Source of the DNA: Paracoccaceae bacterium | GTDB taxonomy: Bacteria; Pseudomonadota; Alphaproteobacteria; Rhodobacterales; Rhodobacteraceae | Assembly (NCBI GenBank): GCA_012270125.1 | Contig: JAAXIY010000026.1 | Coordinates: 1-64,000 of the forward strand | Length of the DNA stretch: 64,000 nt | Reading direction: 5' to 3' | Shown here: one piece after another, positions 1,778-59,310 of the stretch | Layout of the letters: the number at the start of each line of letters is the position of its first letter | How positions within the stretch are numbered: position 1 is the first letter of the stretch | Program-made: the position numbers and the translations under genes | The notes under the pieces: model-generated | The model's database searches: none | What the model was told of the DNA's origin: nothing | What the model saw: only the letters and a program-made list of their open reading frames with translations

Positions 1778-2248
1778 TTATGCTTTGTCTTCTGTATCTG
1801 GTGGTCTGAGTTCGGAAACGAACTTGTCAAAATCATCAGCCGCCTGAAAATTTTTGTAAACACTGGCAAATCGAACATAGGCTACAGTGTCAATTCGAGC
1901 CAAGGCTTCCATAACAATTTCACCAATTTTATTTGAATTGATATCGGTCTCACCTAAACTTTCAAGACGCCGCACGATACCAGAAATCATTTGCTCCATT
2001 CTTTCATGCTCCACAGGTCTTTTTTGCAAAGCAATACGTATGGATCGTTCCAATTTATCTCTATCAAAATCTTCACGCCTACCGTTTGATTTTATTACCA
2101 CCAAATCTCTTAGTTGAACGCGCTCATAAGTTGTGAACCGCCCACCACAAGCAACGCAAAATCTTCGTCTTCTAATAGATACATGATCTTCCGCAGGTCT
2201 AGAGTCTTTCACCTGTGTATCAATATTACCGCAAAACGGACAACGCAT
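1778..2248 (-). CDS. nrdR: Transcriptional repressor NrdR
   Basis: ATP/dATP-sensing repressor of ribonucleotide reductase genes. The N-terminal zinc ribbon is visible as CPFC (C3, C6) and CVAC (C31, C34) followed by [10 protein letters not shown], and an ATP-cone domain spans about residues 46-136. At 156 residues it has the usual length. It is the first gene of a tight group with ribD, an arrangement common in proteobacteria. I did not find a convincing pair of NrdR boxes just upstream, so autoregulation is not supported by the sequence. Confidence 0.96.
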
Positions 2249-2366
2249 TACTAAACCTCATTTTGTATTCTCTCAGCATGGATCTTGCGCACACTTATCC
2301 ACAGTTACCATAAAAAATAAACAATAAATTGTGTAGTTTGAATTTTTTCTGTCTATATAAAGTAGA

Positions 2367-2780
2367 CTAGGATAATAAAAGTGACCCCACAATTTCCCTC
2401 TTACGTGGCCGTAAACGATGTTCAACCACATAAATTCCTTGCCAAGTACCAAGCATCATCCGTCCATTTTCAATTGGAATAGATAAAGTTGAAGGAAGCA
2501 ATCCAGATTTTATATGAGCCGGCATATCGTCCGGTCCCTCATAGGTATGAGTTAAATATGACATTTCTGGAGATGAACTAGGAGGTACTAACCTTTCAAG
2601 ATATTGAACGAAGTCAAACTTTACTTCTGGGTCAGCGTTTTCTTGGATTAAAAGACTAGCTGAAGTATGTTTGATCAAGAGAGTGAGAAGCCCATTGCCC
2701 TCAACCCATTTTTCAACCTCAGTTGTAATCTCGTAAAGCCCAGGTCCATTTGTTGATACAAAAAACCTCTCTAATTTCAT
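2367..2780 (-). CDS. YjbQ/UPF0047 family protein
   Basis: 137-residue member of the small YjbQ (UPF0047) family; some members can substitute weakly for thiamine-phosphate synthase, but the physiological role is unsettled. The family signature HTSASLLIQENADPEV is present at about residues 38-53, and the C-terminal GTWQGIYVVEHR with its conserved histidine and arginine is intact. It lies alone between nrdR (118-base gap) and rpoD (46-base gap) on the same strand, and there is no thiamine gene nearby. Family assignment is firm; function is not. Confidence 0.88.
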   Translation of the reverse strand: MKLERFFVSTNGPGLYEITTEVEKWVEGNGLLTLLIKHTSASLLIQENADPEVKFDFVQYLERLVPPSSSPEMSYLTHTYEGPDDMPAHIKSGLLPSTLSIPIENGRMMLGTWQGIYVVEHRLRPRKREIVGSLLLS

Positions 2781-46266: not shown

Positions 46267-47244
46267 ATGATCACTAAATTGAAAGTGGGCTCAGCTATTT
46301 CTGCTGCCCTAATGCTATGTGCAAGCTTTGTGACGCAAGCTGTTGCTGAAGATTGTCATAGAGGCACATTGGATGAAGCATATTGCGATAGAAACTTAGA
46401 CCAAGTTGCTGACCTACCGCTTGATCCAAAGGATTGGGTTGACCCAAAGACATTAATTTTCACTTACACACCTGTTGAAGATCCTGCCGTTTATGCAAAC
46501 GTGTGGAAACCATTTACAGACCATCTTGAAAAGATGATTGATCGAAAAGTTGTCTTTTTCCCGGTTGAGTCAAATGCAGCGCAACTAGAGGCTATGCGTT
46601 CTGGAAGATTGCACGTCGCGGGTTTCAATACTGGATCCAACCCGATTGCTGTTAGCTGCGCAGGCTTTGTTCCATTTGGGATGATGGCCTATGATGATGG
46701 TTCTTTCGGCTATGAAATGGAAATCATTGTTAAAAAAGGAAGTGACATCGCATCGCCTGCAGACATTAAAGGTCGAACAATGGCTTTTACATCACCCACA
46801 TCTAACTCAGGGTTTAAAGCACCATCTGCTATTCTGAAGGGTGAATTTAGCTTAATTGCCGAACAAGATTTTACCCCAACATTTTCAGGCAAGCACGATA
46901 ACTCTATCTTAGGTGTTTACAATGGTGACTATGAAGTAGCTGCTATAGCGAACTCTGTCAGACAGCGCATGGAACGCCGTGGTGTTATCGAAAAAGACGT
47001 ACTTGAAATAATTTACACGTCAGCAACTTTTCCAACAACAGGTTATGGCCATGCCCACAACCTACACCCTGAGCTTGTTGCTAAAATCAAAAGTGCTTTT
47101 TGGAGCTTTGATTTTGACTCAGACGCAACTTTCAAAAAAGAGTTTGCTAAAGCTGATCGCTTCATAGGAATCCGTCATAAAAATGACTGGGCTGTGATCA
47201 GAGGCATCGATGCAGCAAACGGTGTAAGTTACGACTGTAAATAA
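46267..47244 (+). CDS. phnD: Phosphonate-type ABC transporter substrate-binding protein
   Basis: Periplasmic binding protein of the PhnD/phosphate-phosphonate family: signal peptide ending at AVAEDC (about residue 27), LIFTYTPVEDPAVYANVWKPF, FFPVESNAAQLEAMRSGRLHVAG, and SPTSNSGFKAP at the position of the ligand-gripping serine/threonine loop. 325 residues; cysteines near the mature N-terminus could form a disulfide. GGAGAGGAAC precedes the ATG. First gene of phnDCEE. Ligand could be a phosphonate, phosphite or another small phosphorus compound; no C-P lyase, phnWX or ptxD gene adjoins it. Confidence 0.88.
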   Translation: MITKLKVGSAISAALMLCASFVTQAVAEDCHRGTLDEAYCDRNLDQVADLPLDPKDWVDPKTLIFTYTPVEDPAVYANVWKPFTDHLEKMIDRKVVFFPVESNAAQLEAMRSGRLHVAGFNTGSNPIAVSCAGFVPFGMMAYDDGSFGYEMEIIVKKGSDIASPADIKGRTMAFTSPTSNSGFKAPSAILKGEFSLIAEQDFTPTFSGKHDNSILGVYNGDYEVAAIANSVRQRMERRGVIEKDVLEIIYTSATFPTTGYGHAHNLHPELVAKIKSAFWSFDFDSDATFKKEFAKADRFIGIRHKNDWAVIRGIDAANGVSYDCK

Positions 47245-47256
47245 ATTTAAACAGAG

Positions 47257-47282
47257 GACCTGGCCTCTCTAAAGGCCAGGTC
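47257..47282 (+). other. Perfect stem-loop between phnD and phnC
   Basis: GACCTGGCCT at 47257-47266 pairs perfectly with AGGCCAGGTC at 47273-47282 around a 6-base loop. No T run follows, so it is probably not a full terminator. Stable hairpins behind binding-protein genes often protect the upstream mRNA or attenuate, giving more binding protein than permease; that role is inference. Confidence 0.7.
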
Positions 47283-47332
47283 ACTATATTTCTTAATTTT
47301 AGAAATCAAATGTATAGGAATACAGGTACAAA

Positions 47333-48127
47333 ATGCTTCAACTGAGCGAATTAACAAAAAGATATAATACTGGAGAACTCGCTCTAAAAGGCGTCTCTTT
47401 AGAAATTCCAAAAGGGCAAGTACTGGCTCTAATCGGTCCCTCAGGGGCAGGCAAGTCCACCTTGATCCGATGCATAAATCGACTTGTGCAGCCGACATCT
47501 GGCAGTGTTGTATTGAAAGAATTAGAGTTAACAAAGCTTTCGTCATCAGCACTAAGACGCGCACGACGACGAATGGGAATGATTTTTCAAGAATATGCTT
47601 TGGTTGAACGCCTTACTGTAATGGAAAACGTTTTATCAGGTCGTCTTGGTTACGTTGGATTTTGGCGTAGTTATTTTAGGAAATTTCCCAGTGCCGATAT
47701 TCAGGAAGCCTATCGCCTGTTGGACCGCGTTGGCCTTAAGCATATGGCCGATAAACGTGCCGATGAATTATCAGGAGGTCAACGGCAACGCGTTGGGATA
47801 TGCCGAGCACTAATTCAAAACCCAGACCTGCTATTAGTGGATGAACCGACGGCAAGTCTTGATCCCAAAACATCTCGTCAAATAATGAGATTGATACAAG
47901 AACTATGCTCTGAAAGAGGTCTAACGGCCATCATTAACATTCACGATGTGTTTTTAGCACAGATGTTTTCTCAGCGTGTTGTAGGTCTAGAGTTAGGCTC
48001 TGTTGTTTATGATGGAAAGCCAGAAGGACTTACGCCTGAAGTTCTAACGAGAATTTACGGTGAGGAAGATTGGTCAGCAACCATTAAGTCAACAGACGAG
48101 GATGATGACGAAGAGGAAGACTTTTAA
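47333..48127 (+). CDS. phnC: Phosphonate-type ABC transporter ATP-binding protein
   Basis: ATPase of the phnDCEE importer. Walker [10 protein letters not shown] at about 35-43, Q-loop [21 protein letters not shown] cut by the PhnC-typical insertion with [13 protein letters not shown], signature [11 protein letters not shown], Walker [14 protein letters not shown]. 264 residues. An unusual run of acidic residues ([11 protein letters not shown]) ends the protein. The next gene starts 2 bases after its stop. Confidence 0.94.
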
Positions 48128-48129
48128 TC

Positions 48130-48945
48130 ATGGCAGACTCTTCGGGAACAGATAGCTACCCTTCCAGTTGGAAGAAAGCTCCATTTATTAAAAATAGCTT
48201 TGTAAGATGGCTTTTAATCGTGGGCGGAGCAATTTATCTTGCTGCAGCCCTGGGCACGATGAATATTGATATTGAGCGCGTGAAGGAAGGTTTGCCAAGA
48301 GCTCAAAGGTTCTTAGATTCATTTTTTCCACCAAATTTTGCCGATAATCGTGGGGTTCTTTGGGAAGGGATTGCCGAAAGTATTTGGATGGCAATTATTT
48401 CTACGGTTGCTGGAATTGCCTTATCTATTCCTGTAGGCCTAGGCGCTGCTCGTAACTTAGCACCCGCCTGGGTGTATTTGTTTTGCAGAGGCATAATAGC
48501 CGCTTCTAGAACTTTTCCTGAAATAATACTCGCAATATTCGCAGTAAAATTGTTTGGTTTCGGACCATTTGCTGGTTTTGTTGCTCTAGCGCTTGGAACT
48601 ATTGGCTTTTATGCCAAATTACTCGCAGAAGATATTGAGAATTCTAGCGCATCTCAAGCTGAAGCTGTAAAAGCAACTGGAGCAAATTGGTTTCAGTGGG
48701 TCAATTACTCCATTCAACCTCAGGTTATGCCAAGAATGATAGGGTTATCAGTATATCGCTTGGATATTAATTTCAGAGAGTCTGCAGTTGTCGGCATTGT
48801 TGGCGGCGGCGGAATTGGAGCAACTTTGAATACCTCCTTTTCTAGATACGAATTCGATACGGCAGCCGCGATACTCATAATAATTATCTTAATTGTGATG
48901 GCTATGGAATATACGTCAAGCTTTATGAGAAAGTGGGTGCAGTAA
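48130..48945 (+). CDS. phnE: Phosphonate-type ABC transporter permease 1
   Basis: Inner-membrane permease of the PhnE family, about six helices. The cytoplasmic EAA loop reads QAEAVKATGANWFQWVNYSIQPQ, and NFRESAVVGIVGGGGIG near the C-terminus is a family hallmark. 271 residues. It overlaps the second permease by one base (TAATG). Two different PhnE chains imply a heterodimeric channel. Confidence 0.93.
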   Translation: MADSSGTDSYPSSWKKAPFIKNSFVRWLLIVGGAIYLAAALGTMNIDIERVKEGLPRAQRFLDSFFPPNFADNRGVLWEGIAESIWMAIISTVAGIALSIPVGLGAARNLAPAWVYLFCRGIIAASRTFPEIILAIFAVKLFGFGPFAGFVALALGTIGFYAKLLAEDIENSSASQAEAVKATGANWFQWVNYSIQPQVMPRMIGLSVYRLDINFRESAVVGIVGGGGIGATLNTSFSRYEFDTAAAILIIIILIVMAMEYTSSFMRKWVQ

Positions 48946-49757
48946 TGCCAACAATTACAAATAACGGGACTGAATCTTGGCGTCTTCGCACTTCGAAAGA
49001 ACAATGGATTAGATGGGTTTGTTGGTTAATCGGTATAGCCATTATTATGTATGCTTGGCAGATGATATCCGAAAAAACAGTGTGGTTTTTCGTAACCGAT
49101 GCACCTAATCAAGCTGCCGACATAGGCGCACGCATGGTTCCTCCAAAATGGTCTTATATGGATAAGTTATGGAAACCTGTTTGGGATACAATTAATATTG
49201 CGACACTTGGAACTGTTATAGCAATGGTTATAGCTGTACCAGTTGCTTTTGCTACAGCTCGCAATACAACCCCAAACATTGTTGTACGCACGATAGGCCT
49301 CTTTATTATTGTTTCGTCTAGATCCGTGAACTCTCTAATCTGGGCTCTTATTTTAGTTTTTATTTTGGGCCCTGGTGTTTTGGCTGGTACAATTGCAATT
49401 GGGCTTAGGTCTGTAGGGTTTTGCGCTAAACTTATCTATGAGTCTATTGAAGAAATAGATCACACACAGGTTGAAGCTATTGAAGCAACTGGCGCAAGTA
49501 GCTCCCAAAAAATGTTATTTGGTATTTTGCCTCAGGTTCTCCCAACTATAGCTGGTGTTGGTATTTATCGTTGGGATATCAATATTAGAGAGTCAACAAT
49601 CTTAGGTTTAGTTGGTGCCGGAGGAATTGGTTTACAATTAAATGGTTCCCTGAATACGCTAGCCTGGACACAAGTATCTTTAATTTTGATAGTCATATTG
49701 GTAACTGTTTTCATATCAGAATGGGTTTCAGCTAAAGTTCGTGGCGCTATTATTTAG
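48945..49757 (+). CDS. phnE: Phosphonate-type ABC transporter permease 2
   Basis: Second permease subunit: EAA loop QVEAIEATGASSSQKMLFGILPQ and NIRESTILGLVGAGGIG. 270 residues from the ATG at 48945, which overlaps the preceding stop codon; an alternative start four codons earlier would lie within the first permease. Together with phnD, phnC and permease 1 it completes an importer. The next gene begins 64 bases downstream. Confidence 0.93.
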   Translation: MPTITNNGTESWRLRTSKEQWIRWVCWLIGIAIIMYAWQMISEKTVWFFVTDAPNQAADIGARMVPPKWSYMDKLWKPVWDTINIATLGTVIAMVIAVPVAFATARNTTPNIVVRTIGLFIIVSSRSVNSLIWALILVFILGPGVLAGTIAIGLRSVGFCAKLIYESIEEIDHTQVEAIEATGASSSQKMLFGILPQVLPTIAGVGIYRWDINIRESTILGLVGAGGIGLQLNGSLNTLAWTQVSLILIVILVTVFISEWVSAKVRGAII

Positions 49758-50753: not shown

Positions 50754-51539
50754 ATGTCACCAAAAAAGAAAATTAGAGAGGATTTTATTAGAAACATACT
50801 GGCAGAACGCGGTAGTGTGAGCGTTGGATCTTTGGCAGAAACATTGGATGTTTCAATGCAAACAATTAGACGTGATCTGGACAAGCTTTCCGCATCGGAA
50901 AATTGGCATAGAGCTTACGGTCGGATTAGCGTTGCTAAAAGCCTTCTTAACACTCCTTTTGAATTGCGAGCTAGTACGAATTTAAAAGGAAAACAGGCAA
51001 TTGCAGAAGTAACGGCTGCACAAATTCCAAACGGATCGACAATTTTCATATCAATAGGATCGACACCCTTGGAAGTTTCAAAAGCCCTTTTGAGTAAGCG
51101 AGACTTGACAGTTATTACTAACAATTTAGGCGCAGCTCTTACCTTGGGTAATGAAACATCAAATAGGATTTTAATACCTGGTGGGGAAATTAGACTTCCA
51201 GATAAAGACATTATCGGCGAAGAAACAGAACAGTTTTTTGATAGATTTAGAGCAGAATTCGCAATATTTGGCGTTGGTGGGGTCGCCAAGGATGGGGGTC
51301 TTTTAGATTTTCACCCAGCAGAAGTTCAAGCCAGACTCAAAATGAAAGAGCATTCTAGTAAATCTATTCTGGTTTTAGATAGCAGTAAATTTATTAGGCA
51401 CGCCCCAGCTGCAGGAGATAATATTACTAATCTAGATTTAGTTATTTGCGATAACCCAGGACCAACCCCAACAAGCAATCTAATTTTGAGTTTAAAAAAT
51501 AAAATAATTTTTGCAGAGCAAGAAACCGAAACGCTATGA
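50754..51539 (+). CDS. DeoR/GlpR-family transcriptional regulator
   Basis: 261-residue regulator. The N-terminal winged helix-turn-helix reads ERGSVSVGSLAETLDVSMQTIRRDLDKLS (in two halves), and the C-terminal sugar-phosphate sensor domain contains ISIGSTPLEVSKAL, ITNNLGAA and FGVGGVAKDGG. DeoR proteins sense phosphorylated sugars or glycerol-3-phosphate. The stop overlaps the start of the next ABC ATPase by 4 bases, so it is the first gene of the Ugp-like operon and likely its repressor. Confidence 0.9.
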   Translation: MSPKKKIREDFIRNILAERGSVSVGSLAETLDVSMQTIRRDLDKLSASENWHRAYGRISVAKSLLNTPFELRASTNLKGKQAIAEVTAAQIPNGSTIFISIGSTPLEVSKALLSKRDLTVITNNLGAALTLGNETSNRILIPGGEIRLPDKDIIGEETEQFFDRFRAEFAIFGVGGVAKDGGLLDFHPAEVQARLKMKEHSSKSILVLDSSKFIRHAPAAGDNITNLDLVICDNPGPTPTSNLILSLKNKIIFAEQETETL

Positions 51540-52549
51540 GTGAAAAATTTGTTGATATTAATAACATTGCCAAAAGATGGAATGGTCAACTTGGTGTCGA
51601 GGATATCTCACTATCTTTCCCAAAAGGGTCATTCGTCGCGTTGTTGGGACCATCTGGTTGTGGAAAATCCACAACTTTAAGGCTTTTGTCCGGACTTGAA
51701 CAAGCAGATCAAGGAATAATTAAAATTAATGGCGTAGATGTGACTGACAAACCTCCATCAGAAAGAAATCTTTCTATGGTATTTCAATCATATGCTCTTT
51801 TTCCCCATTTAACCGTTAAAGAAAATGTTATTTTCGGACTTAAAGTACGCAAAACTCCAATTAAAGAACGGCAAGAAAAACTTCTGCGCGCGCTAGAAAT
51901 CACTGGGCTTGTTGGTTTTGAAAATCGAAAACCGGCAGAACTATCTGGAGGTCAAAGACAGCGTGTTGCACTAGCTAGAGCCATTGTAGCAAATCAACCG
52001 CTTTGCCTGATGGATGAGCCTTTATCAAACCTAGATGCCAAACTTCGCAACTCGGTCAGAAAAGATATTAAAAAACTACAAGTCAATTTGGGTATTACTG
52101 TGGTTTATGTTACTCACGATCAGACTGAAGCCATGAGTATGGCTGACATCGTTGTTTTGATGAAAGACGGTCGAATACAGCAAACAGGTTCCCCTGAAGA
52201 ACTGTATTATAAACCTAATAATATATTTGTTGCTGAATTTATTGGAAGCCCGCCCATGGCTATAATTGAAGGTAAAGCGCTTAAAGGGTTCGAGAAATAT
52301 TCAAGCGTAGGTATTAGGTCTGAAAACCTCACTGTGGCAAAAAAAGGAAAAGGGCGTTTAATTTGTGAGGTTTCAGAATGCGAATTTCTTGGATCTGAAA
52401 CCTTTATAGGTCTATCACACCCCTCTGCTAAAGGTCTGACAATTTCTATGCCTGGGGTACAAAATATTGACCAAGGCAAAAAACTAGAAATTTCATTTGC
52501 AAATGAAGATTTGCATTTTTTCGACGTCAATGGGGACAGAACCTCATGA
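51536..52549 (+). CDS. ugpC: Ugp/Mal-type ABC transporter ATP-binding protein
   Basis: CUT1-family ATPase. Walker A GPSGCGKST at 38-46, Q-loop VFQSYALFPH, signature [11 protein letters not shown], Walker B LCLMDEPLSNLDAKLR and switch VTHDQTEAMSMAD are intact; a C-terminal TOBE-type regulatory domain runs from about 240. 337 residues. Coupled to the regulator (4-base overlap) and followed by the binding-protein gene after 37 bases. Named by the resemblance of the whole operon to Ugp; such ATPases are exchangeable among sugar systems. Confidence 0.87.
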   Translation: MSEKFVDINNIAKRWNGQLGVEDISLSFPKGSFVALLGPSGCGKSTTLRLLSGLEQADQGIIKINGVDVTDKPPSERNLSMVFQSYALFPHLTVKENVIFGLKVRKTPIKERQEKLLRALEITGLVGFENRKPAELSGGQRQRVALARAIVANQPLCLMDEPLSNLDAKLRNSVRKDIKKLQVNLGITVVYVTHDQTEAMSMADIVVLMKDGRIQQTGSPEELYYKPNNIFVAEFIGSPPMAIIEGKALKGFEKYSSVGIRSENLTVAKKGKGRLICEVSECEFLGSETFIGLSHPSAKGLTISMPGVQNIDQGKKLEISFANEDLHFFDVNGDRTS

Positions 52550-52586
52550 CAAACTATTACAAATTTTATTCTAAAGGGAGGAAAAT

Positions 52587-53843
52587 ATGAATAAATTTGC
52601 TAAACTGGGACTGGCAGCAGTTACTGCTATCGGTATAGCTGCCCCGGCAGTGGCCGAAACTGAATTGACCATGTACTATCCTATTGCCGTGGGTGGCAAG
52701 CTTACCGAAGTTGTTGATGGGATTGTTTCAGATTTTGAGGCTGCAAACCCAGATATAAAGGTGAATGCCATCTATTCTGGAAATTATGATGATACACGTG
52801 TTCGTGCATTGTCAGCATTAGCATCTGGGGATCCTGCCCAGCTGGCTGTGATGTTTTCAATTGATGCTTATGACCTGATCGAACAGGATTTGGTTATGGC
52901 ATTTGATGATATTAGTGGAGTTGATAAAAATTGGTTAAATAGTTTTTATCCAGCTCTAATGGCAAATGGAAATATTGAAGGTAAAACTTGGGGGATACCA
53001 TTTCAAAGATCAACTATTGTTGCCTATTACAATAAGGATTTATTTCGTGCCGCTGGCTTAGATCCAGAAGCGCCCCCTACAACGTGGGATGAAATTATTT
53101 CTATGGGTAAAACTCTTACTAAGGATGGCACATACGGTCTAATGATTCCATCTACCGGATATCCCTACTGGATGTTTCAAGCTCTCGCGATCCAAAACGG
53201 GAAAGAAGTCATGTCTAATGACGGACTTACTACCTATTTCGACGACCAGACCGTCATAGACACTTTGGATTTCTGGAAATCACTTTCCACAGAACATGGT
53301 ATTATGCCAGAAGGCACCGTTGAATGGGGCACGCTCCGTCAGGCCTTTTTAGAAGGAAAAACTGCTATGATGTGGCATTCTACTGGTAATCTCACCGCTG
53401 TTAAGAATAATGCATCTTTTGATTTTGGAGTAGCAGAACTTCCAGCAAATGTCAGAAAAGGTTCTCCAACTGGTGGCGGAAATTTCTACGTTTTTAAAGA
53501 AACAAGTGCCGAGGAACGCGCAGCTGCCCTAAAGCTCATTGAATTTATGACTTCACCTGAGCAAGCTGCAGCTTGGTCTATTGCTACGGGTTATATGGGC
53601 GTATCCCCTGCTGCATATGAAACTGAAGCTCTTAAGAAGTATACATCTGAGTTTCCACCAGCTCTCGTTGCTAGAAACCAGCTTGAGCACGCAGTTGCAG
53701 AATTCTCTACATTTGAGACTGCCAGAGTTAGAGAAGGCCTAAACAATGCAATTCAAGCTGCTTTGACTGGTGCAAAATCATCAGCTGATGCTTTGAAAGA
53801 GGCTCAATCAGCAGCCGTACGTTTGTTGCGAGACTATCAATAA
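52587..53843 (+). CDS. ugpB: UgpB-like ABC transporter substrate-binding protein
   Basis: 418-residue family 1 binding protein with a signal peptide cleaved near AVAETEL (about 22). IVSDFEAANPDIKVNAIYSG, WGIPFQRSTIVAYYNKDLF, FDFGVAELPA and TGYMGVSPAAYE line up with the corresponding ligand-contacting segments of E. coli UgpB, which binds glycerol-3-phosphate and glycerophosphocholine. GGGAGGAAAAT before the ATG is a strong ribosome site. Ligand specificity is inferred, not shown. Confidence 0.83.
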   Translation: MNKFAKLGLAAVTAIGIAAPAVAETELTMYYPIAVGGKLTEVVDGIVSDFEAANPDIKVNAIYSGNYDDTRVRALSALASGDPAQLAVMFSIDAYDLIEQDLVMAFDDISGVDKNWLNSFYPALMANGNIEGKTWGIPFQRSTIVAYYNKDLFRAAGLDPEAPPTTWDEIISMGKTLTKDGTYGLMIPSTGYPYWMFQALAIQNGKEVMSNDGLTTYFDDQTVIDTLDFWKSLSTEHGIMPEGTVEWGTLRQAFLEGKTAMMWHSTGNLTAVKNNASFDFGVAELPANVRKGSPTGGGNFYVFKETSAEERAAALKLIEFMTSPEQAAAWSIATGYMGVSPAAYETEALKKYTSEFPPALVARNQLEHAVAEFSTFETARVREGLNNAIQAALTGAKSSADALKEAQSAAVRLLRDYQ

Positions 53844-53847
53844 ATTA

Positions 53848-53884
53848 AAATAGAGCACTCAGTAAAAGCCTGAGTGCTCTATTT
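53848..53884 (+). other. Perfect 15-bp stem-loop after the ugpB-like gene
   Basis: AAATAGAGCACTCAG at 53848-53862 pairs perfectly with CTGAGTGCTCTATTT at 53870-53884 around a 7-base loop. Only three T end the stem, so it can act as a partial terminator or 3' stabiliser. It separates the binding-protein gene from the permeases by 63 bases, the same arrangement as between phnD and phnC. Confidence 0.75.
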
Positions 53885-53906
53885 CTGAATGTTAATGAAA
53901 TTATAA

Positions 53907-54797
53907 ATGCTTAGATTAAAAAAAATGTCCCAAAGACAATCTATATATGGGTGGCTTTTACTTTCACCTGCTATGATTTTGTTAACAACATTTGCATTCT
54001 ACCCGTCCATGGCAACTTTTTGGTCAAGCTTGTTCAGTCGAGGGACCCGGAGAAAACCAAGTAAGTTTATTGGGACAGACAATTATACTGATCTATTTGC
54101 TGACCCAACTTTTTGGAAAGTTCTTACAAACAATTTAATCTACGCCGGCGCAACTATACCAATATCAATAGTGATAGCTTTATCAATGGCGTTATGGGCG
54201 AATTCCAAAATACCAGCGCGGAGTTTTATAAGAACAGCTTATTTTACACCTACTGTTCTCCCTATGATCGCCGCCGCTAATCTTTGGTTATTTTTTTACA
54301 CACCAGGTTTTGGCGTCTTAGACCAAATTGGAAGCCTATTTGGGTTACCCTCTGTGAACTGGCTAGGGCAACCAGAAACAGCTCTTTTTTCGATAATTGT
54401 AGTAACGATATGGAAGGAGGCAGGTTTCTTTATGATTTTTTATTTAGCTGCTCTTCAAACAATACCAGAAGATCTTAAAGAAGCAGCCGACATAGAAGGA
54501 ACTAGCCGCTGGTATTATACTAGAAGAATTGTTTTACCTCTTTTAATGCCAACAACTTTATTTATTTTGGTAAATGCCCTGATCAATTCTGTAAAATTAA
54601 TTGACCACCTTTTTATACTTACAAAAGGAGGGCCAAACGATGCATCAAAGTTATTACTCTATTACATCTGGGAGATGGCTTTTGCTTTTTTTGATGCCCC
54701 ACACGCTGCAGCAACAACTATATTAGTTTTAGCAGCACTTGGAATAATTGCAGGTATAAAATTTACTATTCTTGATAAACGGACTCACTACCAATGA
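53907..54797 (+). CDS. ugpA: Ugp-type ABC transporter permease 1
   Basis: MalF/UgpA-type permease with six predicted helices and the cytoplasmic EAA loop LKEAADIEGTSRWYYTRRIVLP. 296 residues from the first ATG; a second in-frame ATG at 53925 (MSQRQSIYGWLL) is an equally good start, and neither has a strong ribosome site. The stop overlaps permease 2 by 4 bases. Confidence 0.87.
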   Translation: MLRLKKMSQRQSIYGWLLLSPAMILLTTFAFYPSMATFWSSLFSRGTRRKPSKFIGTDNYTDLFADPTFWKVLTNNLIYAGATIPISIVIALSMALWANSKIPARSFIRTAYFTPTVLPMIAAANLWLFFYTPGFGVLDQIGSLFGLPSVNWLGQPETALFSIIVVTIWKEAGFFMIFYLAALQTIPEDLKEAADIEGTSRWYYTRRIVLPLLMPTTLFILVNALINSVKLIDHLFILTKGGPNDASKLLLYYIWEMAFAFFDAPHAAATTILVLAALGIIAGIKFTILDKRTHYQ

Positions 54798-55603
54798 AGT
54801 TTTTTCTAAGGAATATTGAAGCTCTTGGTGCCATTCTCTTAGCAATTATTTGGGTATCACCACTTTTGTATGCTTTTTGGGCTGCATTTCATAACACGTC
54901 AGACGCCGTTAACTTTAATATCTACGGGGAATGGACTTTGGACAACTTCAAAATTGCTTGGGATGGAGCTCCTTGGCTAAGATATTTTTTAAATACATTT
55001 ATGTTAGTAACAGTAATCTTAATTGGCCAATTTTTTGTCACTACGTTAGCAGGGTTTGCATTTGCTCAAATCAAGTTCCCTGGGCGCGATTTTGTTTTTA
55101 TTTTAGTTTTAATGCAACTTTTTATTCTACCCGAAGTGCTGATTGTTGAGAATTATGCAATGGTCTCTAGATTAGGGCTTTTTGATACTATCTTGGGCGT
55201 TGGAATGCCGTACATGGCTTCAGCTTTTGGAATTTTTTTAATGCGTCAAGCTTTTAAGGGGGTACCTTATGAACTTCATGAAGCGGCGCGGGTAGAAGGA
55301 TGTGGATGGTTTGGAATTTTATGGCGTGTGTATGTTCCATTAGCCAGACCCACCTATATTGCTTATGCCTTGGTTTCAGTATCAACTCACTGGAATAACT
55401 TTTTATGGCCGTTAATAGTAACCAACACTCCAGACACAAGACCTTTAACGGTTGGGCTTTCAATTTTTGGTGCTCCAGAAAACGGGGTAGATATTAGTAT
55501 AATTTCAGCTGCGACAATGATGTCAATCGCACCATTACTTATTGTATTTTTAATATTCCAAAGACAGTTTGTTCAGGCATTTTTGCGCACAGGAATTAAA
55601 TAG
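54794..55603 (+). CDS. ugpE: Ugp-type ABC transporter permease 2
   Basis: MalG/UgpE-type permease, six helices, EAA loop LHEAARVEGCGWFGILWRVYVP, and the C-terminal NNFLWPLIVTN typical of the second permease. 269 residues. It overlaps permease 1 by 4 bases and is followed after 2 bases by the phosphodiesterase gene, tying uptake to hydrolysis of the same substrate. Confidence 0.87.
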   Translation: MKFFLRNIEALGAILLAIIWVSPLLYAFWAAFHNTSDAVNFNIYGEWTLDNFKIAWDGAPWLRYFLNTFMLVTVILIGQFFVTTLAGFAFAQIKFPGRDFVFILVLMQLFILPEVLIVENYAMVSRLGLFDTILGVGMPYMASAFGIFLMRQAFKGVPYELHEAARVEGCGWFGILWRVYVPLARPTYIAYALVSVSTHWNNFLWPLIVTNTPDTRPLTVGLSIFGAPENGVDISIISAATMMSIAPLLIVFLIFQRQFVQAFLRTGIK

Positions 55604-55605
55604 AT

Positions 55606-56430
55606 ATGGCAAAGCTGATACATTTATCTGATCTTCACTTGGTCTCACCAGGGACGCTAACCTCTCGTGTTCTGGACACTAATGCAATTTTAGAGGAAAC
55701 AATTAATGAAATTGCAAACAAAATAGAATATTTTGGCCAAATTGATGCTCTTGTTGTTACTGGCGATATAAGTGATGATGGCAGCTTAGAAAGCTATATA
55801 AGCGCCTATGAAAAGCTCGGAAAATTAAACGTTCCTGTACTGGCAATCCCTGGGAACCATGACTTACGTATTCCGATGCGAAAAATATTTCATGAGGATG
55901 TTGAATTTAGCACAAGCTCAACGCAATTTGATTGGGCTTTTCAACATGAAGAAACATTAATAATTGGACTTGATACTTTAGTCGAGGGTGAAAATTTTGG
56001 ACTTCTAGAAAAAGAAAGCTTAGATTTTTTGTCAAAATATTTATCCAATTATCAAGGATCTGATTTAGTTCTGCTGATCCACCATCCTCCCATTAAAACC
56101 GGAATTTATTTTATGGATCAAATTGGTTTAAAAAATAGTAGTGATCTTTCAGAGTGTTTAAAATCCTCTAATAACCCAGTAAAAATACTATGTGGTCATG
56201 TTCATGGAGTATATCATGGGCTGCTTGGCATTCATCCCGTGGTGACTGCACCATCGGTTTGTAGTGCATTTGAATTTAATCGAAAAAAGACTGCTCCAGT
56301 GGGTTTCAACAAAGGGCCAACAGGATACGCATACTTCGAAACATCAACTGATGGATTTTGGACCGCAATCCCATCCAACTATGGAAGTGGGCCTTTAAAG
56401 TTTAGCGATGGAAGTGAAATAAACACTTAA
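55606..56430 (+). CDS. Metallophosphoesterase, GpdQ/CpdA-like
   Basis: 274-residue calcineurin-fold phosphodiesterase. Metal-site motifs in order: LSDLHL, VTGDISDDG, PGNHD, LIHHPP and CGHVHGVYHG. No signal peptide, so it acts in the cytosol. Family members hydrolyse cyclic AMP or glycerophosphodiesters; immediate coupling to an Ugp-type importer favours a glycerophosphodiesterase, replacing the UgpQ enzyme seen in enteric ugp operons. PlcP-like phospholipid hydrolysis is a less likely alternative. Confidence 0.85.
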   Translation: MAKLIHLSDLHLVSPGTLTSRVLDTNAILEETINEIANKIEYFGQIDALVVTGDISDDGSLESYISAYEKLGKLNVPVLAIPGNHDLRIPMRKIFHEDVEFSTSSTQFDWAFQHEETLIIGLDTLVEGENFGLLEKESLDFLSKYLSNYQGSDLVLLIHHPPIKTGIYFMDQIGLKNSSDLSECLKSSNNPVKILCGHVHGVYHGLLGIHPVVTAPSVCSAFEFNRKKTAPVGFNKGPTGYAYFETSTDGFWTAIPSNYGSGPLKFSDGSEINT

Positions 56431-56664: not shown

Positions 56665-59310
56665 ATGTTAAAGATTATTCCTCCTACAAATCAAAATGCA
56701 TCCTCATGCTTTATTGAAAGTGCATCTCAATTTAATCTGGAAGTAAGCTTTTCCAAAAAAAGTAAGGAAATCATTGATGAACATTGTCGGTTTGAAGTTT
56801 ATAAGACCGGCGAAACTCTTTTTCACCAAAACCAAATAGCGGAAAATCTATACTTTTTGGTTAACGGCAAAGTTGAATTTACACGAAAAGCTGAAGACCA
56901 AAATATTACTTTCGCAACTGTTACGGAACATATCGTGCCATTAGGTGTATCTGGATTAAACTCACCAGGTAGGTACATGTCTGACCTTACTATTATAGAA
57001 GATAGCCAAATTTTAATTTTTCCTCTCTCAGTTCTTTATGATCTCTTAATCATTGACCAGATTAGTGGTGCTTCTTTAATGAGCTTTGTTCTGAGCCGAT
57101 CTACTGAACTATTATGGGCTACACGTCATTTCAAACCAGCGAAGCCGAAACCGATACAAAAAAAGTTTAATGGTGTTTTGTTTAATAGCGACAGAGATAT
57201 TGTTAAAAGGCTAACTAACAGCGCTTTTTTTGCTCAACTTGACAAAGAGAGGCTACCTGACCTTTTAAAATTTAGCGAATTATTATTATTTCCAGCCAAC
57301 GAAATCATTATGAATGAAGGGGAGCTATGTGAAGACCTAATAATTTTGTTCACTGGTAGCTTAGAGGCTAACTTTTCGTTTAAACTAGACAATAAAATTG
57401 TTCAGAAGACCCGAACAATCGTAACACCCGGCGTTGCTCTCTCGTGGGCAAACGGTCACTCAAACTTAATTGCACCATACTCCATCAAATCGAACCGTGA
57501 CACGGCTATCCTTAAATTTTCCAAGAAAAATTTAAGGTCGATGATGGAAGTCGAACCATTACTCGCTTCCTTTTTATTCCAAAGACAAATTTGGCAAATT
57601 GGTCGATTTCAACAATCAGCTAACAGACACTTTAACTTCACAGATAATCCGGGATCTGAATTTTTAAAAACACTTATCAGCTTCAACGGGTCAAAAATTC
57701 CCGTACAGTCGCCACTTCATTGTGCAGTGCACATGATCGATAATAGATTTACAAGAAAATTTGGTTTGGACTGCATTTATGAAGCAGCTCTTAAAGGTAA
57801 TGAAGCTGAAAAAACAGTAGGCTCTTTGGCGCTGGATGCGTTGAAGCCAGTTGAACGCGAACATCGTTTTTTTGAACAGTTAAACAAAATTTATACCCGC
57901 GTTGCGAGTGCAAAAAAAGGTACAAACGCATCAAGTCTAAGAGAACTTATTCAGCTGGATTTCGCCCGCGCATTTGACCAAGTACCTTATGTAATAAAAG
58001 GTATGGAAAATCTTCCCAAAGAGTCCAAAACAATTTTCATTTATAATCATCTTGCTTCTTGTCCAGAAAATGTGCTGGCAAATGGTCACGCATTTTCAAT
58101 AGATAGTCACTTCGTCAGTTCCAAAATTTTATATCCAAAATACGGTGACGGAGGACAAAGAATTGTTCGCGCCAGTAGAAACACCGAATTTTGGCGTAAC
58201 GGTTATTATTCTCGACTTGATAACATTGTTGTTCACACACCAGAGTCAGATAGACTTGATGAAACACAATTTGAGAAGGAGGCCCGGAAAGAAAGTTTGT
58301 TCATTGAAGCCCAAAAAGCTTTTAATGAAGGACGACCACTCGTCATCGCTCCAGAGGGCACATCGGAAACGCCCGATAATTTAACGACCACCTCTCCAGG
58401 TCCATTAAAGCTGGGAGCCTTTAAGCTTGCTGCTAATCTAAAACCCTCACCCGTAATCGTTCCAATAGCCCTAGCAAATTTTGATTTTCCCGTCTCCGGA
58501 ACAAATTATGCTGCTGTAATAAAGCCAGGCTTCAGATTGTCTGATATGGTAGCTGATACATCAAGCGAAGCCGAAATAGACAGCTTTCTAAAAGAATATA
58601 GAAAAACTTTTAGATCATATGTCGAAGAGGCGATAGAACTTGCCGCTGAGTTAAATATTATGCCTTTTGCAAAACGCCAAACACTATCAACTAACGTCGG
58701 TTTACTCAGCCCTGTCGAGGAAGAATTTGGCACTGACGTCCGTGAGGTTGAAATTCAGAACCATATTAGCCAAACGAAAGAGCAAGACTTTATTTTGTAT
58801 GGAAGTTCGACACTCAGACTTTGGAAAGAAGCGAAGACTGACTTGGGTATTCCACATCTATCTAATTTAGCATTTGGCGGTGCGACTATTGCTGCTTGCC
58901 AAGCATTTTCAGAAAGGCTTTTGACAACCAGAACAACTAATGGAAAAATTATTATCTATGCAGGAGATAATGACTTGGGGAGCGGTCTTTCTGTTTCTGA
59001 AGTTATTCGTGATTACAAAAATTTTCTCATTACAGTAACGGAGCTTCTACCTAATTTTGAAGTTTTAGTAATCTCAATAAAACCCTGCCCTTTCAGGCGC
59101 CACCTAAGGAAGGAGATTGAAGAAGTTAATTTCTGGTTAGAGAAATATATAAATAACAAAGAAAATTGGAGTTTTATAGATATACACTCTTCTATGCTTG
59201 ATGCTTATGGCGAAAATAAAAATGCTTTTTATAGTGACGATCCACTGCATATGAATGATGTTGGTTACGCACTTTTAGGTAAAAAAGTTAGAATGTCTTT
59301 AAACAGTTAA
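56665..59310 (+). CDS. Fusion protein: two cNMP-binding-like domains, PlsC-like acyltransferase, SGNH hydrolase
   Basis: 881 residues in one intact frame. Residues about 30-135 and 184-300 each have the cyclic-nucleotide-binding fold pattern (YKTGETLFHQNQIAENLYFL; FPANEIIMNEGELCEDLIIL). About 452-625 resembles glycerophosphate acyltransferases, with NHLASCPEN (H462, but P467 where HX4D needs Asp; E468 follows) and APEGTSE (562-568). About 705-880 is an SGNH/GDSL hydrolase: GSSTLRLW (nucleophile S715), NLAFGGA (G738/G739), AGDND (N769) and DPLH (D859, H862). No membrane helix or signal peptide is evident. It stands alone after a 234-base gap downstream of the Ugp-like operon. Function unknown; regulated lipid acyl exchange is speculation. 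Confidence 0.8.
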   Translation: MLKIIPPTNQNASSCFIESASQFNLEVSFSKKSKEIIDEHCRFEVYKTGETLFHQNQIAENLYFLVNGKVEFTRKAEDQNITFATVTEHIVPLGVSGLNSPGRYMSDLTIIEDSQILIFPLSVLYDLLIIDQISGASLMSFVLSRSTELLWATRHFKPAKPKPIQKKFNGVLFNSDRDIVKRLTNSAFFAQLDKERLPDLLKFSELLLFPANEIIMNEGELCEDLIILFTGSLEANFSFKLDNKIVQKTRTIVTPGVALSWANGHSNLIAPYSIKSNRDTAILKFSKKNLRSMMEVEPLLASFLFQRQIWQIGRFQQSANRHFNFTDNPGSEFLKTLISFNGSKIPVQSPLHCAVHMIDNRFTRKFGLDCIYEAALKGNEAEKTVGSLALDALKPVEREHRFFEQLNKIYTRVASAKKGTNASSLRELIQLDFARAFDQVPYVIKGMENLPKESKTIFIYNHLASCPENVLANGHAFSIDSHFVSSKILYPKYGDGGQRIVRASRNTEFWRNGYYSRLDNIVVHTPESDRLDETQFEKEARKESLFIEAQKAFNEGRPLVIAPEGTSETPDNLTTTSPGPLKLGAFKLAANLKPSPVIVPIALANFDFPVSGTNYAAVIKPGFRLSDMVADTSSEAEIDSFLKEYRKTFRSYVEEAIELAAELNIMPFAKRQTLSTNVGLLSPVEEEFGTDVREVEIQNHISQTKEQDFILYGSSTLRLWKEAKTDLGIPHLSNLAFGGATIAACQAFSERLLTTRTTNGKIIIYAGDNDLGSGLSVSEVIRDYKNFLITVTELLPNFEVLVISIKPCPFRRHLRKEIEEVNFWLEKYINNKENWSFIDIHSSMLDAYGENKNAFYSDDPLHMNDVGYALLGKKVRMSLNS

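Follow-up and report, generated by a model that had tools for sequence, protein, structure and literature searches.

A fusion of tandem CNB-like domains, a PlsC-like acyltransferase and an SGNH hydrolase recurs in distant bacterial lineages

Why would a marine bacterium place a presumed acyl-adding and a presumed acyl-removing domain behind two sensor-like domains in a single chain? The question is raised by a gene at positions 56665-59310 of a 64,000-nucleotide stretch (the window) of Paracoccaceae bacterium contig JAAXIY010000026.1. An earlier note, made from the sequence alone, described its product as a fusion of two cyclic-nucleotide-binding (CNB)-like domains, a PlsC-like acyltransferase and an SGNH hydrolase. 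We find that the architecture is widespread: it is present in SAR11-type, Marinomonas and Dadabacteria-type genomes, and as an adjacent gene pair in Bacteroidota. As to its function, we tentatively favor a ligand-gated turnover of acyl groups.

Domains and predicted folds of the fusion protein

The reading frame is intact, as the note had it. It starts with ATG, runs for 881 codons without an internal stop, and has a single match across the 2.16-Mb genome of the window. The gene and its parts are as follows.

56665..59310, plus strand: fusion gene, 881 residues, CNB-CNB-PlsC-like acyltransferase-SGNH hydrolase (sequence, Pfam, AlphaFold2 model, structure match)
56737..57144, plus strand: CNB1, residues ~25-160, limits chosen in this analysis (best PF00027 stretch 44-128; alignment column counts)
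57187..57624, plus strand: CNB2, residues ~175-320, limits chosen in this analysis (3mdp match 182-304; profile matches)
57832..58656, plus strand: PlsC-like acyltransferase region, residues 390-664 (5kym structure match; PF01553)
58048..58050, plus strand: codon of H462, the motif-I His, with P467 at position +5 (sequence; family alignment)
58708..59307, plus strand: SGNH hydrolase region, residues 682-881 (2hsj, 6njc and 1wab structure matches; PF13472)
58807..58809, plus strand: codon of S715, the proposed nucleophile, paired in the alignment with the GNS Ser of 6njc (sequence; alignment; profile)

All the Pfam families concerned pass their cut-offs. Two stretches of the protein match cNMP_binding (PF00027; 54.4 bits, cut-off 27.5), residues 446-603 match Acyltransferase (PF01553; 29.1 bits, cut-off 23), and residues 727-870 match Lipase_GDSL_2 (PF13472; 44.2 bits, cut-off 32.9). 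An AlphaFold2 model built from 37 aligned sequences has a mean predicted local distance difference test score (pLDDT) of 80.8 and a predicted template modeling score (pTM) of 0.53. The top Foldseek matches of the model are the tandem CNB domains of PKA-R and PKG (5kbf, E 1.5e-12). When superimposed with VIA-align, residues 390-664 of the model match T. maritima PlsC (5kym; Z 18.5, root-mean-square deviation (rmsd) 4.1, 222 aligned). Residues 682-881 match 2hsj (Z 25.0, rmsd 3.2, 201 aligned), sialate O-acetylesterase 6njc (Z 24.8, rmsd 2.0, 190 aligned), and PAF acetylhydrolase 1wab (Z 23.3, rmsd 2.4, 197 aligned). A profile search of the PDB with the acyltransferase alignment returns 5kym as its sole match (E 0.043); for the relation to PlsC, the fold match is stronger evidence than the profile matches. 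The model thus predicts CNB, PlsC and SGNH folds in the fusion protein, and the four domains of the earlier note hold up. So do the residues that it named: H462, P467 at the HX4D position, E468, S715, G738, N769, D859, and H862.

Distribution, conserved residues and esterase partners

With the window protein alone as query, no match is obtained in genome_contigs or viral_contigs; an alignment of the acyltransferase core is needed. Searched against one genome each of 84,980 species, this alignment yields 128 relatives; the analysis was continued with the best 80. These 80 loci comprise five of the window's genus, one of UBA4588 (L082), 58 SAR11-type, 11 Marinomonas, and L080, L085, L086, L087, and L090. 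Fourteen of the SAR11-type loci are labeled Pelagibacteraceae or Pelagibacterales; the rest are labeled 'uncultured Alphaproteobacteria' and are assigned by identity and synteny. Within the genus, 6 of 16 genomes hold the fusion, the window's own included (many of the others are incomplete).

The gene is a single frame in 77 of the 80 loci, encoding 866-910 residues except in L030 and L069, which are cut by contig ends. In L080, L087, and L090 it is split into two open reading frames of ~650 and ~200 residues that overlap by 14-16 nucleotides. L080 and L090 are Bacteroidota; L087 is labeled Rickettsiales, yet is 89% identical to L080. Split pairs are also present in Persicobacter (Bacteroidota, L008; 655 and 209 residues) and in genome G1228 (697 and 199 residues, SGNH present).

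Samples of individual lineages give a similar range of layouts. At E<=1e-30, a match of some kind turns up in nine of 385 Alphaproteobacteria genomes. The complete fused layout is seen in four of these (G000, G230, G186, and G291), CNB and acyltransferase without SGNH in one (G253), and SGNH alone in four. The acyltransferase core is matched at E<=1e-20 in 4 of 369 genomes from the class of the Marinomonas genome G106. In the phylum of L085 and L086 (L086 is Dadabacteria), 14 of 57 genomes match, 12 of them with open frames of 911-921 residues; the two of these 12 that were inspected, the Dadabacteria-type L158 and L159, contain all four parts. In the phylum of L080, 68 of 395 genomes match, and among the matches listed, except G101, coverage is limited to the SGNH part. 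At most two candidates were scored per genome in the Alphaproteobacteria and L080-phylum samples, and a separate CNB-acyltransferase gene may have been missed there.

The earlier note suggested a search for homologues with the same domain order. As that order recurs in distant lineages, chance juxtaposition and a frameshift artefact are ruled out. The fusion is more than chance also because the five genus relatives retain it (84-85% identity to the window protein) and because the per-domain ratio of nonsynonymous to synonymous substitution rates (dN/dS), window versus L014 and L018, is 0.037-0.215. For the acyltransferase, the ratios are 0.038 and 0.046 (91% and 89% identity); for SGNH, 0.074 and 0.088 (82% and 83% identity). 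Several pairs gave no usable dS. In a tree of SGNH domains, most standalone relatives (24 of 28) cluster separately (100/98); of the other four, three stand next to alphaproteobacterial fusions and the fourth, on a long branch, next to Marinomonas. The fused or operonic label costs 3 changes on this tree versus a shuffled mean of 19; there are long branches and no single clean clade.

Residue conservation was counted over an alignment of 84 family sequences. In this alignment, the SGNH catalytic residues are near-invariant: S714 is present in 84 sequences, S715 in 82, G738 in 81, and N769, D859, and H862 in 83 each, with a single gap. In two of the 11 Marinomonas loci (L077 is one), Thr replaces S715 and S714 is kept; either S714 may serve there or the esterase may be altered.

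In the acyltransferase, H462 is found in 82/84, D480 in 82/84, P563-E564-G565 in 84/84, and T566 in 69/84 sequences; motif III of the window protein reads PEGTS. The Asp position of HX4D is occupied by Glu (44), Pro (21, as P467 in the window), Asp (15), or other residues (4). Pro occurs in 6/7 genus and UBA4588 loci, 9/11 Marinomonas loci, 4/4 split loci, and both L085 and L086; Glu or Asp occurs in 57/58 SAR11-type loci. Since Pro recurs across lineages, it is not a private defect of the window protein. The NH, PEGT and G-x-F-x-L-A stretches align with standalone PlsC, and YGDGGxRIVR is a family-specific stretch.

The cassette of CNB1 is non-canonical. The window protein has G94-V95-S96...P101-G102-R103-Y104, and the family pattern is G-[IWV]-S...P-x-R-[YFH]. 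The canonical motif is given as FGE (PMC2246266). Position 95, the place of the canonical Glu, is I in 48, W in 19, and V in 16 sequences, with one gap, and Glu in 0/83; R103 of CNB1 is kept in 83/84, with one gap. Of 14 family-bearing genomes, 9 have a class III cyclase match; in the other five, some of them incomplete, a search that covered class III alone gave none. The earlier note proposed cAMP or cGMP as ligand. On these data, sensing of either by the CNB domains is unsupported, and cAMP gating taken as given is ruled out on the CNB1 cassette, cyclase presence being mixed. CNB pockets of trypanosomatid PKA are described as able to switch ligand (PMC10959531).

In six loci, an AXE1-type esterase gene lies directly upstream of, and divergent from, the CNB-CNB-acyltransferase genes. 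The six are G253 (Alphaproteobacteria) and G1197, G1089, G1274, G1275, and G1277 (all in the class of G106). The esterase genes are located as follows.

L156:9877-10833, plus strand: AXE1-type esterase gene
L155:5202-6263, minus strand: AXE1-type esterase gene
L168:5720-6730, minus strand: AXE1-type esterase gene (G1274)
L169:10620-11552, plus strand: AXE1-type esterase gene
L170 ~1897-2763, plus strand: AXE1-type esterase gene (G1277)
L096:3475-4470, plus strand: AXE1-type esterase gene

The esterases of G253 and G1197 are confirmed as AXE1 (PF05448) by hmmscan. By tblastn, those of the other five loci are 42-53% identical to that of G1197, and those other than G253 42-46%. CNB1 and CNB2-acyltransferase are separate reading frames in G253 and G1197, and the acyltransferase His is kept beside AXE1. 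No SGNH is found downstream in G253, G1197, G1089, and G1275; this holds for the locus, no search aimed at SGNH elsewhere in those genomes having been made. The absence is readable in these four of the six loci; L168 extends ~0.6 kb past the acyltransferase in G1274, and L170 is cut inside the acyltransferase gene in G1277. The six loci represent about three lineages, four of the six coming from one order. A tblastn search with the G1197 AXE1 (E<=1e-4) over the collected loci, many with short flanks, matches no SGNH-bearing locus. A seventh locus without SGNH in its available flank, G1190, stands outside the six; its contig ends upstream, and its genome has no AXE1 match.

Our reading is that AXE1, a possible non-homologous substitute, has taken the place of SGNH next to a constant sensor-acyltransferase. 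The acyltransferase and an exchangeable esterase thus appear to form a conserved module. That an unrelated esterase is encoded next to this sensor-acyltransferase where SGNH is missing supports the view that both halves serve one process. The earlier note's pairing of acyl-adding and acyl-removing parts is thus supported by three arrangements: one fused chain, adjacent split genes, and an acyltransferase gene with an unrelated esterase gene next to it.

Proposed acyl turnover, genomic context and rivals

The account that we favor, as possible rather than probable, is a cytosolic, probably membrane-peripheral enzyme that carries out ligand-gated acyl turnover, a Lands-cycle-like process in one chain. 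The SGNH domain, of the PAF-acetylhydrolase or sialate-O-acetylesterase type, would hydrolyze an acyl ester, the group removed being perhaps short or damaged. The PlsC-like domain would re-acylate an acceptor of the same type, using a long acyl chain. The tandem CNB domains, with their non-canonical pocket, would sense a small ligand, probably not cAMP, and would set the balance of deacylation and reacylation or the recruitment to the membrane. The observed basis of this account is the folds, the SGNH residues, the acyltransferase His and PEG, the low dN/dS where computable, and the pairing of CNB-acyltransferase with esterase in three arrangements. From these we infer the location, chemical reaction, lipid substrate, order of steps, and gating; like the earlier note, we infer a switchable enzyme.

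Several observations weigh against this account. The motif-I Asp is missing in 69/84 sequences, and the FIDR that forms motif II of a standalone PlsC corresponds to VVHTPESD, with loss of the Arg, in one alignment of modest probability. A glycerophosphate acceptor is therefore doubtful. The hhalign comparison of the acyltransferase with standalone PlsC is modest (probability 49%, E 1.7e-4), and that with a second standalone PlsC gives 4%. By identity, SGNH is the more conserved of the two catalytic domains in the G186/G291 pair, and also in two of the three SAR11-type pairs. In G186 and G291, which belong to one genus, the acyltransferase is changed as follows.

L160:1053-3713, plus strand (G186), and L104 (G291): fusion variant that has Ser for the acyltransferase His and Cys for D480, SGNH residues intact (alignment)

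Given the change of His to Ser, the acyltransferase domain of that genus is probably inactive, a natural inactive variant. In addition, the domain arrangement is unreadable from the model, as its pTM is 0.53, and the known relatives of both esterase partners, SGNH and AXE1, are largely acetyl or carbohydrate esterases. Ordinary PF01553 genes accompany the fusion in 9/9 family-bearing genomes, and the fusion is thus unlikely to be the basal PlsC. Among these points, the eroded acyltransferase motif appears to be the main weakness, and the near-invariant His with the invariant PEG the main defense.

The neighborhoods of the gene include the following features.

46267-49757: PhnD/C/E/E-type transporter, before the importer block
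50754-55603: importer block (DeoR, ATPase, solute-binding protein, two permeases), upstream of the fusion
55606..56430, plus strand: calcineurin-type phosphoesterase, retained by 5/5 genus relatives and without a match at seven loci from other lineages
L054:6681-20246: photo-oxidative-type cluster around the fusion (two photolyases, MsrA, TspO, SDR, FeSOD, DUF3833, CMAS)
L157:5878-6918, minus strand: gene for a patatin-like phospholipase, immediately following the split CNB-acyltransferase and SGNH pair of G1228

The earlier note argued from an Ugp-type organophosphate uptake operon. An importer block and a phosphoesterase do lie upstream; the importer proteins fall below the Ugp model cut-offs (138 vs 411, 121.5 vs 335, 113 vs 297, and 342 vs 432 bits). 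The block is present in none of the five genus relatives; in these, HAD (matched partially in two) and the phosphoesterase precede the fusion, and four have PhnE ahead of both. Of 12 window neighbors tested against seven loci from other lineages, none gives a match at E<=1e-20. The organophosphate-uptake partnership is therefore rejected by synteny. In the window genome, DeoR and a CUT1-type ABC importer stand between HAD and the phosphoesterase; the sequences point to either an insertion there or a loss in the relatives.

Photolyase genes are near the fusion in part of the family. SAR11-type context B (13 loci) has the order DPRP photolyase, DCC1-like, fusion, second photolyase (gap 0-1 nucleotides), and in context A a flavin amine oxidase is close by and a DPRP photolyase no more than a few kb away. 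A DPRP photolyase lies downstream in 4/5 genus relatives, at 3.5 kb in L014 and L016, and is 46-49% identical to the full-length SAR11-type protein. In the window genome, G101, G105, G107, and G253, the DPRP gene and the fusion are on different contigs; G102, G103, G106, G186, and G291 give no DPRP match. A photolyase is in the available flank of 49/80 loci, many of the 31 without having short flanks. Photolyase linkage as a general rule is rejected, the gene being unlinked or unmatched in the other lineages checked. Other neighbors include, in 11/11 Marinomonas loci, a gene of one cluster 16-27 nucleotides upstream of the fusion (flavin-reductase family in L077). In L085, an HTTM-domain protein gene (L085:7210-8358, plus strand) is directly upstream of the fusion, to be compared with the DCC1-like gene of context B.

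Three rivals have to be weighed. The acyltransferase may be a degenerate acyl- or membrane-binding platform, leaving the SGNH esterase, gated by CNB, as the sole chemistry, much as neuropathy target esterase (NTE) links CNB domains to a lysophospholipase. The rarity of the HX4D Asp (15/84), the lost motif-II Arg, and the loss of His in G186/G291 with SGNH kept would fit; the His in 82/84 and PEG in 84/84, the low acyltransferase dN/dS in the genus (0.038 and 0.046), and the persistence of CNB-CNB-acyltransferase with its His beside AXE1 argue the other way, and we consider a mere platform somewhat unlikely. The same protein might instead edit acyl groups on an O-acylated sugar or other small envelope metabolite rather than a phospholipid. 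A sialate O-acetylesterase is among the best SGNH matches, the AXE1 partners match the acetyl xylan esterase family, and AnmK, NagA, and MurQ genes follow the fusion in 5/5 genus relatives. These neighbors are not found in the seven loci of other lineages, known PlsC-fold enzymes use lipids, and a patatin phospholipase gene follows the G1228 pair; such a non-lipid substrate is unlikely.

A role in photo-oxidative repair, in which oxidized or truncated acyl chains would be removed and the lipid restored as part of a light-stress gene set, draws on the photolyases that flank the fusion in context B, the further genes of L054, and the DPRP photolyase near the fusion in context A and the genus. 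The ChrR-type singlet-oxygen regulon is described as including phrB, cfaS, an SDR, and a flavin oxidoreductase (PMC5507510), and the SAR11-type photolyase gene sets resemble the singlet-oxygen and blue-light responses described in PMC5507510 and PMC5241685. With the photolyase in only 49/80 available flanks, unlinked in five genomes and unmatched in five others, and with linked contexts that may trace to one ancestral linkage, this role is quite improbable; light stress is a lead, not a result. A broader proposal joins these elements: CNB-CNB-acyltransferase with an esterase that can be exchanged (SGNH, either fused or operonic, or a divergent AXE1) would repair photo-damaged membrane lipids of abundant surface-ocean bacteria, the CNB domains sensing a new signal that is not a cyclic nucleotide. 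We regard it as improbable.

The ligand-gated turnover of acyl groups remains our preferred account. The fusion is present in many SAR11-type genomes, and for a streamlined lineage a gene of 2.6 kb is a large investment. Its recurrence suggests a controlled system of acyl-group editing, probably on membrane lipids. This raises the question of whether bacteria have a signal-controlled cycle of deacylation and reacylation in a single protein, and of which ligand the non-canonical CNB pocket binds.

Comparison with known systems

All the parts of the fusion are known folds; the combination of CNB, acyltransferase and SGNH is undescribed in the literature searched, which gave partial matches at most. 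A census of CNB families that includes Global Ocean Sampling data covers CNB domains whose cassettes are non-canonical and whose ligands differ (PMC2246266). In its descriptions of 30 families, neither an acyltransferase nor a GDSL partner is named, nor is a cassette like GVSGLNxPGRY. The earlier note's statement that no system of this architecture is described thus stands for the literature searched and for the 30 family descriptions of this census; the architecture itself is widespread.

Compared with PlsC (5kym), the fusion shares the fold and the aligned NH, PEGT and G-x-F-x-L-A stretches; it differs in the Pro for Asp of motif I, the replaced Arg of motif II, the YGDGGxRIVR stretch, and the attached sensors and esterase. 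PAF acetylhydrolase Ib and sialate O-acetylesterase (1wab, 6njc, and 2hsj) share the fold and catalytic residues of its SGNH domain, whereas most standalone relatives in the SGNH tree (24/28) group apart from the fusions.

Two other kinds of protein resemble it in composition. The AT3-SGNH O-acetyltransferases of the OatA type also carry an acyltransferase and an SGNH domain in one chain, and the OatA SGNH is among the structural matches. Their acyltransferase is a multi-span membrane AT3 domain, whereas that of the fusion has a PlsC fold; in Pfam, AT3 has no match in the fusion, and PF01553 is the sole acyltransferase family at E<=1. Aas likewise has a PlsC-type domain in a bifunctional lipid-repair protein, but its partner is an acyl-ACP synthetase, an AMP-dependent ligase without a Pfam match in the fusion.

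NTE (PNPLA6/7) consists of CNB domains and a patatin lysophospholipase. It is not known to have an acyltransferase, and its hydrolase is a patatin, which has no match in the fusion at E<=1 (Pfam), where the hydrolase is SGNH. NTE places several CNB-fold domains before a lipid-ester hydrolase in one chain, as the fusion does, and is the closest working analogue.

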